Source: Natrinema sp. CBA1119
GTDB lineage: Archaea; Halobacteriota; Halobacteria; Halobacteriales; Natrialbaceae
DNA length: 64,000 nt
Assembly: GCF_002572525.1 (NCBI RefSeq)
Contig: NZ_PDBS01000001.1
Span: 1,550,001 to 1,614,000, forward strand
Direction: 5' to 3'
Positions 22,123-60,918 of the stretch are shown here, piece after piece. The number at the start of each line of letters is the position of its first letter. Positions within the stretch are counted from its first letter, which is position 1. The translations under genes were made by a program, and so were the position numbers. The notes under the pieces were generated by a model, which was given only the letters and a program-made list of their open reading frames with translations, was not told the origin of the DNA and ran no database searches.

Positions 22123-23208
22123 ATGACGGATTCCGGACAGGCCGAAAACGTAACGGCACCGCGCTTCGGATGGATGATCGTGACGCTCGCTGGTGCCATC
22201 GGGACGGCTCCGGATCTGCTCCGACTCCTCGCCGTTCCCGTCTTCGCCTGGACCGCCTACCGCGACATCGAGACCAGACGCGTCTCGAGTACCGTCTGGA
22301 TCCCCCTCGCCCTGCTCGGGGCCGTCTTGCTGGGCTGGGAGGGCTGGCTCGCCTGGAGCGCCAGCGGGGACGCCTGGACCTTCGAGTTTCTGATTCCGAC
22401 GGCGATCAGCCTGGGTCTAGTCGTCCCGATCGCCTACCTGTTCTGGTGGTTCGGCGGCTTCGGCGGGGCCGACGCGAAGGCCTTGCTCGTGTTGGCCGTC
22501 CTCTTTCCGACCTTTCCCGAGTACGCGCTGGGCTCGCGGACGCTCCCGCTCGGCGAGACGACCGCAATCGGCACGTTCTCGTTTACGATCCTGACCAACG
22601 CCGTTCTGGTGGGGATCGCGCTCCCGATCGCGCTGGCGATCCGAAACGCCGCCGCGGGACGAATCGCGCCGGTCATGTTCGTCGGCTGGCCCGTCTCTTG
22701 GGAGCGGATTCCGGAGACCCACGGCCGCCTGCTCGAGACGCCGGCGGGGCTCTCTCGAGGCGGCCTCGACATCGACGCGCTCCGGATGTACCTCCGCTGG
22801 CGGGGACTCTCGCTTGCCGACCTGCGCGATGACCCGAAGCGGTACCGCGACCCGTCGACGCTGCCCACCGAACCGAATCCGCCGACCGACGGCGCTGTGA
22901 CTGCGACCGCACAGCCGCGCAGCGACGGTGGGACGCTCGAGTCGGACGCCGACGACGCGGTCCCCGAATCCGTGGCGGACTCGGACGCGCCCGAGTACGA
23001 CGATCCGTGGGGTGCCGACGCCTTCCTCGAGGATATCGACGGCTCGGCCTACGGAACGACGCCCGAGACGCTCCGTGAGGGGCTCGACGTGCTCACGACC
23101 GAAGAGACGGTCTGGATCTCGCCGGGAACGCCGTTTCTCGTCCCGGTGTTCGCCGGGCTGGTGATCGCGCTGGTCTACGGCGACCTACTGCTGGGAACGT
23201 TGTTTTAA
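22123..23208 (+). CDS. A24-family prepilin/prearchaellin peptidase
   Basis: A 361-residue membrane aspartic peptidase. The two catalytic Asp are visible: one in the loop W-T-A-Y-R-D-I-E-T-R-R after helix 1, and one in F-G-G-A-D-A-K-A-L, the haloarchaeal form of the G-x-G-D motif. About six helices are in residues 10-190. A long hydrophilic acidic region (200-335) and a final helix (340-358) follow. It would cleave class III signal peptides of pilins and archaellins, like PibD/FlaK. The start is the ATG at 22123; the frame is open much further upstream but across the divergent HPP promoter. It is followed 58 bases after its stop by copy 1 of the modular element. Confidence 0.9.
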   Translation: MTDSGQAENVTAPRFGWMIVTLAGAIGTAPDLLRLLAVPVFAWTAYRDIETRRVSSTVWIPLALLGAVLLGWEGWLAWSASGDAWTFEFLIPTAISLGLVVPIAYLFWWFGGFGGADAKALLVLAVLFPTFPEYALGSRTLPLGETTAIGTFSFTILTNAVLVGIALPIALAIRNAAAGRIAPVMFVGWPVSWERIPETHGRLLETPAGLSRGGLDIDALRMYLRWRGLSLADLRDDPKRYRDPSTLPTEPNPPTDGAVTATAQPRSDGGTLESDADDAVPESVADSDAPEYDDPWGADAFLEDIDGSAYGTTPETLREGLDVLTTEETVWISPGTPFLVPVFAGLVIALVYGDLLLGTLF

Positions 23209-23265
23209 CGTCTCTGACGGCGCGTTCTGTTTCGAACTTTCCCTGCGAAACTCGCGGTAGATATA

Positions 23266-23456
23266 GGGGAACTACGTTTCACTCCAGACCGACCATCCAG
23301 TGTGCGGTGGCGCGCGCTGAGTCGCGGTGAGTCGAAGACGAATCGCGACTCGAAATTGTGCGAGGGATGAGTGAGCGACAATAGGAGCGAACGAATCGGC
23401 TGGGGAGGGCGTGGCGATTCCCTGTTGCCACGATAGCAGGACACTCCGTTCACCGT
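23266..23456 (+). repeat. modular dispersed element, copy 1 (short form)
   Basis: This is the shortest of three copies. It begins GGGGAACTACG and contains block A (CACTCCAGACCGACCATCC through GGTGGCGCGCGCTG), block B (GTGCGAGGGATGAGTGAGCG) and block C (CGGCTGGGGAGGGCGTGGCG through GATAGCAGGACAC). Block C contains the hairpin CGTGGC, an 11-base loop, then GCCACG. It starts 58 bases after the peptidase stop on the same strand and ends 52 bases before the convergent gene at 23508. Confidence 0.85.
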
Positions 23457-23507
23457 ATCCCCCTCAGAACCCACTGCTCCATTTACGAACGCAGTCCCAC
23501 GAACCGC

Positions 23508-36972: not shown

Positions 36973-37020
36973 ATTCGGTTTCTACCGCCGCTCGTTCAGC
37001 ACCCACGAACGCTCAGTGAC

Positions 37021-37385
37021 GGGAGCAACGTCTCGCTCCAGACCGACCATCCGGCATGCTGTGGCGCGCGCTGTCGACCGGCCGAGCGTCGCGAGGCGCG
37101 AACACAGTGAGTGCCTCGGAAAGCGAGCGGTGACCGCAGGGAACCGTGAGCACAGTGAGGGCGGTCGATGGACACTGCGCGAGGGATGAGTGAGCGCCGT
37201 GAGGCGCGAACGTTAGCGCGGAACCTCCGGTTCCGCGAACCATACGAATAGTGCGAGACCGGAGGTCTCGCAGACCATGCGAACGGGCGAAGGCCCGTAA
37301 GCAGACGGCGGCTCCGCCGCCGTGAGTAGAAATCGGCTGGGGAGGGCGTGGCGATTCCCTGTTGCCACGATAGTAGGACGCTTCT
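37021..37385 (+). repeat. modular dispersed element, copy 2 (long form)
   Basis: The longest copy. Block A (CTCCAGACCGACCATCC, GTGGCGCGCGCTG) is followed by GCCTCGGAAAGCGAGCGGTGACCGCAGG-type sequence, then block B (CTGCGCGAGGGATGAGTGAGCG), then at least four short inverted repeats (GCGGAAC/GTTCCGC, GCGAGACC/GGTCTCGC, GGGC/GCCC, GGCGGC/GCCGCC), then block C with the CGTGGC/GCCACG hairpin. It begins 49 bases after the glmM stop and ends 66 bases before the convergent stress-protein gene. Confidence 0.85.
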
Positions 37386-37450
37386 TTCGCTGTTTCTCAT
37401 TAGAATCGGCGATTCCATTCATAGCTCTCTCGACCGACTCCGACTGTCCG

Positions 37451-58842: not shown

Positions 58843-60654
58843 ACGTCGCCGCTCGCGATGCCGTACTGTTCGTCGGCCTCGCGGATCGCGCCCTTCGTGA
58901 ACTTCTCGACGACCTTCACCGGAACCAGCCCCTCTTTCTTCGCGGAGACGTCGCTGAAGTTCGAGTGGTCGAGCTTCCAGAGGGCCTTCATCCGCTCGAC
59001 CTTGTTCTCGAGGCTCTCGACGTCCTCGCGGGCGTCGTCGCGCTCGCGCTCGAGGCGGTTCGCCTTCCGCTCGAGGCGGTTCACCTCGCGGTCCTTGCGA
59101 ACTTGCGTTCGTTCCTCGCGGCGGGCGAGTGTCAGTTTCGACTCGAGTTCGTCGATCCGGTCGTCACGCTCGGCGACGCGGCCCTCGAGGCGTTCGACGT
59201 GTGACTGGAGCCGTTCGACCTGGCGCTCCAAGTCCTTGATCCGCCGTTCTTCCTCGGTGAGTTCGCGGGGCTCGTGCTCGTTTTGTTCCTCCTCCTCGCC
59301 GCCCTCGTCGTCGGTCAGGTCCCGCAGGGCGGCCTCGACGCTCTCCTCGCCGGCGACGACGCGGGCGGTGACTTCGCCGCGATCGATCCCCGGCGGGAGC
59401 TTGTCGGCGATGCGCTCGAACTGGTCCTCGTGAGCGTCGAGGGCGAAGAGCGCGGCGGCCATCGCGTCGCGCTGGTGGTCGTCGTCGTAGGGGTGCTCGC
59501 GCGTGCGGTGTTGCTTCTCGTCGACCGGGAGATCGCTCTTGGGCGTCCAGCCCGCGGCGTCGAAGCTTCGGCGGAACTTCTCGACGGTTTCGGGGATCGG
59601 CGTCACGTCGGCCGCGACGATGACCGGGCGGCCCCGCTCGACGATCCACTCGATCACGTCGGCGGTGTCGCTGGTGCGGGAACTCCAGACGTCGAGCACC
59701 TCACCCTCGAGGCCGACGATGGCGACGGCGGTCGTCGTCCCGGGGTCGATGCCGACGACGACGTGATCGCGGCGCTTGACGAGGGGTTCGAACTCGATGC
59801 CGTCGCGGCGCTCGCGCTCGATCTCGACGCGGACGTCCCCCGATCGATTCCGGGAGACGGGGATGTCGCTGGGCCGGGCCTGCACGGTGAAAATCGCGTT
59901 CGCGAAGCCGCCGTAGGCCTCCCGAACGTCGCGCTCGTACTCGAGGTTGTACGCCTCGAGTTCGGACTCGACCTCGCGGGCTCGTTTCCTGACCGAGCCG
60001 TGGATGCGGCGGGTGTAGCGGTCCTCGCTCCAGCCGCCGCTGCCGGTCGAGCGGCCGCGGGCGACCTTCACTTCGGTCGTGTCGGTGAACGCGGAGACTT
60101 CGTGGCCGACGTTGTGGGCGGCCAGCCGGGCGGCGGCTTCGGCCTCCTGCATCGGGTCTTTCCCGTAGGGAACGTTGTGGCGGTTCGCGACGCGGGAGAG
60201 GGGCTCGGGCTGTTCGGCACCTGTTACCTGTACGAGCTTGGTTCCGGTCGGCAGCGAGCCGAGGAAGTGGATCAGCTGGTCCTTGTCGGCGGCCAGCTCG
60301 TACATGTTGTCCGTCGCGACGATCGCCGGCTCCTCGTCGTCGATCAGCCGTCTGAGCTTGCGGTGGGAGACGACGTCTCGAGTGATCTCCTCCCCATCGT
60401 AGACCGCCAGTGCGTACGATGGTGCATCGCCGCGCACGTCACCGCTCTGGATATCGACACCGAAGACGACCGCATCGAGCGCACTCGTTCGCGTACTCAC
60501 AGCGGGCCATAGGAACGAGACGGCTATAAATCCGACGCGGGTTCGCACTCCGATAGAGTCGGGTGACAGTCGGGAGCAGGGACGCGTTCTCCGGCCGAGT
60601 CGCTTATTCACTTGGTGAATGGAACAGCGGATTTTGATAGGTATCCGGTGAACG

Positions 60655-60892
60655 AAGTGTCCTGCTTTCGTGGCTACACGGAATCGCCACGCCCTCCCCA
60701 GCCGATTCGCTCGCTCTGCTCACGGTTCCCTTCAGTCACCGTTCGCTATCCGAGGCGCTCACAGTGTTCGCGCCTCGCACCGCTCGCTCATCCCTCGCGC
60801 AGTGTCATCGGCCACCCTCACTGCGTTCGGTTGGCCTCAAGCGCGCGCCACTGCACGCCGGGTGGCTGGTCCGAAGTGATCCGCAGTTCCCC
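60655..60892 (-). repeat. modular dispersed element, copy 3 (medium form)
   Basis: Read on the minus strand it begins GGGGAACTGCG, 27 bases after the RNase Z stop codon. Block A is the most diverged (CACTTCGGACCAGCCACCC, then AGTGGCGCGCGCTTG). Block B follows (CACTGCGCGAGGGATGAGCG), then GCCTCGGATAGCGAACGGTGAC, then block C (CGGCTGGGGAGGGCGTGGCG through GAAAGCAGGACAC). Blocks found before B in copy 2 come after B here. The CGTGGC/GCCACG hairpin is preserved. Confidence 0.85.
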
Positions 60893-60918
60893 TGTCTCGG
60901 ACGGTAGCGTCGACTGGC

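Follow-up and report, generated by a model that had tools for sequence, protein, structure and literature searches.

The BOX elements of Streptococcus pneumoniae, built as boxA-(boxB)n-boxC, are modular, tightly folded and enriched between convergent genes, about half of their insertions are common to all strains, and their turnover is slow (PMC3049150). Among haloarchaea, transposase-free MITEs and short mobile repeats (SMRs) have been described from Haloquadratum walsbyi; the SMRs have inverted ends without a known partner, are >95% identical within a type and have mostly hit other mobile elements, and the "SwitchRepeats" of Haloquadratum are two repeats found at one position in two strains (PMC3119063). 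PATEs and other IS605-type elements are hairpin-rich and non-coding and are associated with single-stranded DNA transposition (PMC3119063).

The element of Natrinema sp. CBA1119 and other haloarchaea described here recalls each of these systems. With BOX it shares fixed ends, a variable number of interior modules inserted as quantised units, a folded form, a bias to convergent genes and slow turnover; it differs in being archaeal, in carrying its modules in hairpin apical loops and in its repeated tandem G.A pairs, and whereas BOX belongs to one species group, the haloarchaeal element occurs in many genera with its content exchanged at fixed addresses. This likeness lies in the way of working, and membership is not claimed. 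As with the SMRs, we are dealing with a short, transposase-free haloarchaeal repeat, and the SwitchRepeats resemble its address-stable replacement, but its copies are diverse, conserved in structure and located between ordinary genes. The hairpin-rich, non-coding character and a plausible single-strand intermediate are common to the element and the PATEs; the latter have near-terminal palindromes, whereas the element has a core of several hairpins, with inverted outer ends in some lineages.

Results and Discussion

The window, the whole stretch of 64,000 nucleotides that was analysed, corresponds to positions 1,550,001-1,614,000 of the 4.09-Mb main contig of strain CBA1119 (genome 5.06 Mb). 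A first-pass annotation had marked three copies of a modular element in it, at 23266-23456, 37021-37385 and, on the minus strand, 60655-60892. All three were confirmed, and the stated distances of 27-58 bases after stop codons were correct: the stops end at 23208, 36972 and 60919, 58, 49 and 27 bases away. The features of the copies are the following:

23256-23307, plus strand: copy 1, left flank of the GTTCRGTACAGGGGAACCACG...CCAACCGGCGTGCGG type, from the left-flank consensus of 67 genomic copies; outer limit approximate
23308-23317, plus strand: copy 1, 5' block TGGCGCGCGC, in which CGCGC (23313-23317) is the 5' strand of stem P2
23319-23351, plus strand: copy 1, hairpin H1, 10 pairs, tandem G.A and loop, the minimal form without inserted unit; covariation
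23358-23362, plus strand: copy 1, 3' strand of stem P2, GTGCG, followed by conserved AGGG
23366-23397, plus strand: copy 1, hairpin P3, GAT-GA-GT-GA-GC ... GC-GA-AC-GA-ATC, Watson-Crick pairs alternating with tandem G.A pairs
23398-23415, plus strand: copy 1, G-rich segment GGCTGGGGAGGGCGTGGC, the most conserved part
23416-23490, plus strand: copy 1, lineage-specific 3' part (GATTCCCTGTTGCCACGATAGCAGGAC) and right flank; outer limit approximate
37011-37061, plus strand: copy 2, left flank; outer limit approximate
37062-37379, plus strand: copy 2, core, both the H1 loop and the P3 loop enlarged by inserted hairpin units; the G-rich segment lies at 37335-37352
37380-37430, plus strand: copy 2, right flank; outer limit approximate
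60851-60903, minus strand: copy 3, left flank; outer limit approximate
60659-60850, minus strand: copy 3, core, the P3 loop enlarged by an inserted hairpin unit; TGGCGCGCGC lies at 60841-60850 and the G-rich segment at 60686-60703
60605-60658, minus strand: copy 3, right flank, ending near CCATTCAC; outer limit approximate

The reading of these stretches as copies of a dispersed, modular element whose ends are fixed and whose interior varies was supported, with strong covariation, and the swapped order of its inner blocks is real. The shuffled blocks are hairpin units of about 55-62 nt located in the apical loops of H1 and P3 or at the junction between P2 and P3: a GCCTCGG-type unit stands in the H1 loop of copy 2 and in the P3 loop of copy 3. 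Copy 1 has no inserted unit; both loops of copy 2 carry them, as does the P3 loop of copy 3. Segment lengths were grouped accordingly, at 38-42, 99-104 or 157-187 nt for H1, 2, 52-56 or 115 nt for the P2-P3 junction, and 25-33, mostly 84-99 or 142-154 nt for P3. The arms of H1 are paired with or without an inserted unit, and since the units enter apical loops or the junction, the scaffold is left intact.

The genome was searched with a 23-base pattern from the last block, block C (GGCTGGGGAGGGCGTGGCGATTC), allowing up to three mismatches and using the reversed pattern as control. This search gave 68 copies (38 forward, 30 reverse), a number well above chance, and none for the control. A covariance-model search of related genomes detected the element in 14 of 15 genomes from other families of the order, and the core was found in 124 of the 341 haloarchaeal genomes and 40 of the 81 genera sampled, on both strands about equally and in 1 to 134 copies per carrier genome. 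The carriers include Natrinema, Haloterrigena, Natronococcus, Halopiger, Haladaptatus, Halorussus, Halogranum, Halobium and Halococcus. The look-alike stretches are a large family of small non-coding haloarchaeal repeats, far beyond three copies, in which conservation across genera is limited to the core, from GGCGCGCGC to GTGGC, and the outer parts vary. The first-pass annotation had not recognised the kind of element; an Rfam covariance-model search likewise gave no match, even at E 5, and no earlier description of the repeat family was found in Rfam or in the literature searched, a search that left most subscription journals outside.

Across 29 genomes of the genus, the element at the glmM locus was present, decayed, absent or replaced by another element. 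A relative (G348) has seven copies at the same addresses as CBA1119, with flanks 86-98% identical; at three of these seven loci no part of the element clearly resembled its positional partner more than it did random copies, and the other four had mosaic copies, in which only some parts were closer to the partner. The address of copy 3, next to RNase Z, is occupied in G348 by an element with different content. Related species keep the addresses, with contents swapped wholly or in patches. Exchange among dispersed copies, or repeated replacement at one spot, would leave such a pattern at orthologous addresses, and the exchanged content suggests a mixing of copies by gene conversion. In two genomes (G025 and G091) the glmM-usp gap (L103, L107), where other species hold the element, is filled by another insert, which is AT-rich and has the inverted ends CTGTTCAGTACAG...CTGTACTGAACAG. 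The ends of this insert resemble the GTTCAGTA left end of the element.

One strand of the element folds into a GCGCG stem (P2) bearing hairpin H1, followed by hairpin P3 and an invariant G-rich tail, and these parts, with the repeated tandem G.A pairs of P3 and the G-rich single strand, make up a conserved core of about 95 nt. In an alignment of 28 minimal copies fitted to no structure, 114 double-change cells were counted, as compared with 43.6 in shuffles (none of 500 shuffles as high), and 95% of cells were paired versus 29-47% when the partner was slid. Both sides had changed in nine of the ten pairs of H1 and in five of the eight pairs of P3, and stem P2 (CGCGC with GCGCG or GTGCG) was supported by one-sided changes from G-C to G-U. 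An alignment of 100 copies from many genera of other haloarchaea, this one fitted to the model, gave 495 double-change cells versus 158. The pairing of the core has been maintained by compensatory change.

In P3, two-base Watson-Crick steps take turns with tandem G.A pairs (GAT-GA-GY-GA-GY...RC-GA-RC-GA-ATC), and its tandem positions held G.A or A.G in 160 of 168 cells. The neighbours of these pairs are mostly in Y-GA-R order, G-C being exchanged mainly with A-U and C-G with U-A, and the retention of this order matches the expectation for sheared pairs. Wobble G.U exceeded A.C (57 versus 10) in P2, H1 and P3; therefore, the folding strand is the strand as read and not its complement.

Other candidate stems were set aside. 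A closing stem P1 (GTGGC/GCCAC) had support in the fitted alignment but is not claimed, because in a model-independent test its own partners (13.10) were no better than swapped ones (13.04). Neither is a stem P4 (GGGGA/TTCCC), the 3' side of which is unconserved in other genera, and a CCTG/CAGG hairpin showed no covariation. The CGTGGC/GCCACG hairpin proposed earlier for block C can form; the covariation sought there was present in H1 and P3 but absent from this hairpin, whose 3' half is unconserved in other genera.

The tail of the core, GGYTGGGGAGG..GTGG (for example at 23398-23415), is its most conserved part and contains four G-runs. From its composition it could form a putative two-layer G-quadruplex.

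In 192 copies, 293 mini-hairpins built as GA-NN-loop-NN-GA with a loop of three or four bases were counted, whereas dinucleotide shuffles gave about 22 and the complementary strand 2. The commonest loop was the three-base GNA type (122 versus 1.05 in shuffles), and the four-base loops included 38 GNYA and 19 GNRA. In RNA a preference for GNRA would be expected in tetraloops. An independently transcribed structured RNA present in many copies, either an ncRNA that binds a ligand or a protein or the RNA component of a guide-RNA transposon system, would agree with the covariation, the excess of G.U over A.C and the order-wide conservation of the G-rich single strand, and tandem sheared G.A pairs occur in RNA too; we nevertheless regard it as unlikely, given tetraloops lacking that preference, the lack of an Rfam match and the swapping of content between orthologous copies. 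GNA loops have been described as extraordinarily stable loops of DNA mini-hairpins (Yoshizawa 1997, as cited in PMC6479982). The prevalence of GNA and GNNA loops, with no GNRA preference, therefore makes us lean, from loop types only, to single-stranded DNA rather than RNA as the folded form.

All 68 copies of CBA1119 are on the main contig and none on the 0.97 Mb of the eight other contigs (P = 1e-6); the core was not found in the viral contigs searched. Such a distribution is unusual for an active transposon. The plasmids searched gave two records. Together with the addresses kept between species, the restriction to the main contig would suit a chromosomal DNA site that serves the host, for example through a nucleoid or replication protein, and that in the single-stranded state folds or is bound. 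This is improbable, however, as some near-complete genomes of the same genus (G118, G096) have zero copies where their relatives have about 40, and the copies have no fixed orientation. Within the 4.09-Mb contig the copies are unevenly distributed, only 6 of the 68 being in its last third.

The copies are short (about 190-370 bp), intergenic and gene-free inside. Their position was determined from gene calls of a codon-usage gene finder trained on the loci, which are uncurated, a few small calls being possibly wrong. Of the 68 Natrinema copies, 29 occupied convergent gaps, 14 shared the direction of the genes around them in a tandem gap, 15 opposed it, and 10 occupied divergent gaps; the corresponding figures were 29, 22, 17 and 6 for 74 copies from other haloarchaea and 58, 36, 32 and 16 for the pooled 142. 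Convergent gaps were enriched (58/142 copies versus 112/630 local gaps, P = 2e-8), divergent gaps were depleted (16/142 versus 178/630, P = 1e-5), and orientation within tandem gaps was even (P = 0.72).

The rule that a copy always follows a same-strand stop codon, put forward from the window, did not hold in this sample. It arises from the enrichment of convergent gaps, where either orientation follows a stop; three of three copies after a same-strand stop are expected 29% of the time, and the annotation had itself allowed for chance. The placement rule is therefore a by-product of tolerated insertion sites. As the copies are intergenic in either direction, the element is most likely mobile DNA rather than the tail of particular genes. 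That it is the 3'-UTR or terminator of the upstream gene, as had been proposed, is highly improbable and largely refuted by orientation: a same-strand gene lies upstream at 66% of the 142 copies, and in some convergent gene pairs of one genome (G165; L068, L127) each gene has a core just past the stop on its own strand, but against this stand the evenness of the tandem gaps, the 16 copies between divergent genes and the lack, among the 68 copies, of a conserved run of T following the block.

The outer ends differ among lineages. Terminal inverted repeats are clear in one genome (G123) and its relatives, where two head-to-head cores lie between inverted repeats GCTAGGTAATCACGACTCCAA; in CBA1119 there are weak GTTCRGTA / TAYCGAAC ends in some copies only. 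The palindromic elements of this type (L300, L302 and L327-L335, from G123, G352 and G353) are 370-510 bp long, and some contain further end-like repeats (L302, 1580-1660). A different arrangement was observed at L134 (4590-4880), with a full core, a second half core about 155 bases on and a TTTTTAGTCCAGGTTTTTGCGAGGAG stretch between them; the spacing of paired matches in three other genomes (G236, G253 and G256) is similar.

No autonomous partner with matching ends was found by end-pattern searches in the searched genomes, which returned almost only core-bearing elements, and the inverted-end search in the G123 family gave only core-bearing elements. The idea that the ends are a separate transposon was dropped, the right-flank consensus having 15 occurrences, nearly always beside a core. 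None of the five Y1-transposase (Y1_Tnp) loci of CBA1119 matched the core, and as far as these loci tell, the near-terminal palindromes of an IS605-derived element or PATE are not present. No target-site duplication was seen in the copies and orthologous loci compared, among which there was no clean empty site. Like a MITE, the element is short, non-coding and present in many copies (68, with no gene inside); ends common to an autonomous transposon were not found in the searched genomes. Because neither a partner transposon nor a target duplication was found, the status of a MITE in the strict sense is not claimed.

Conclusions

The element probably represents non-autonomous, MITE/BOX-like small interspersed repeats that spread in trans, with gene conversion mixing the copies. 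The enzyme provided in trans would recognise the folded strand, which would more likely be single-stranded DNA, exposed during replication or transfer, than RNA, and would spread the element; gene conversion among dispersed copies would then mix the modules, and insertions would survive mainly where neither promoters nor operons are broken. It is possible, though we consider it doubtful, that the order-wide element is moved or copied via its folded strand (Y-GA-R tandem G.A, GNA loops and possibly the quadruplex tail) by a strand-specific enzyme that also swaps modules at fixed addresses; if true, this would be a new mobilisation mechanism and not another MITE.

The family, apparently undescribed, would rank among the haloarchaeal non-coding repeats with the widest distribution, and its structure is demonstrably selected on one strand. 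It offers a rich covariation data set for tandem G.A helices and a natural system for how gene-less small repeats spread and how gene conversion reshuffles them in polyploid archaea.
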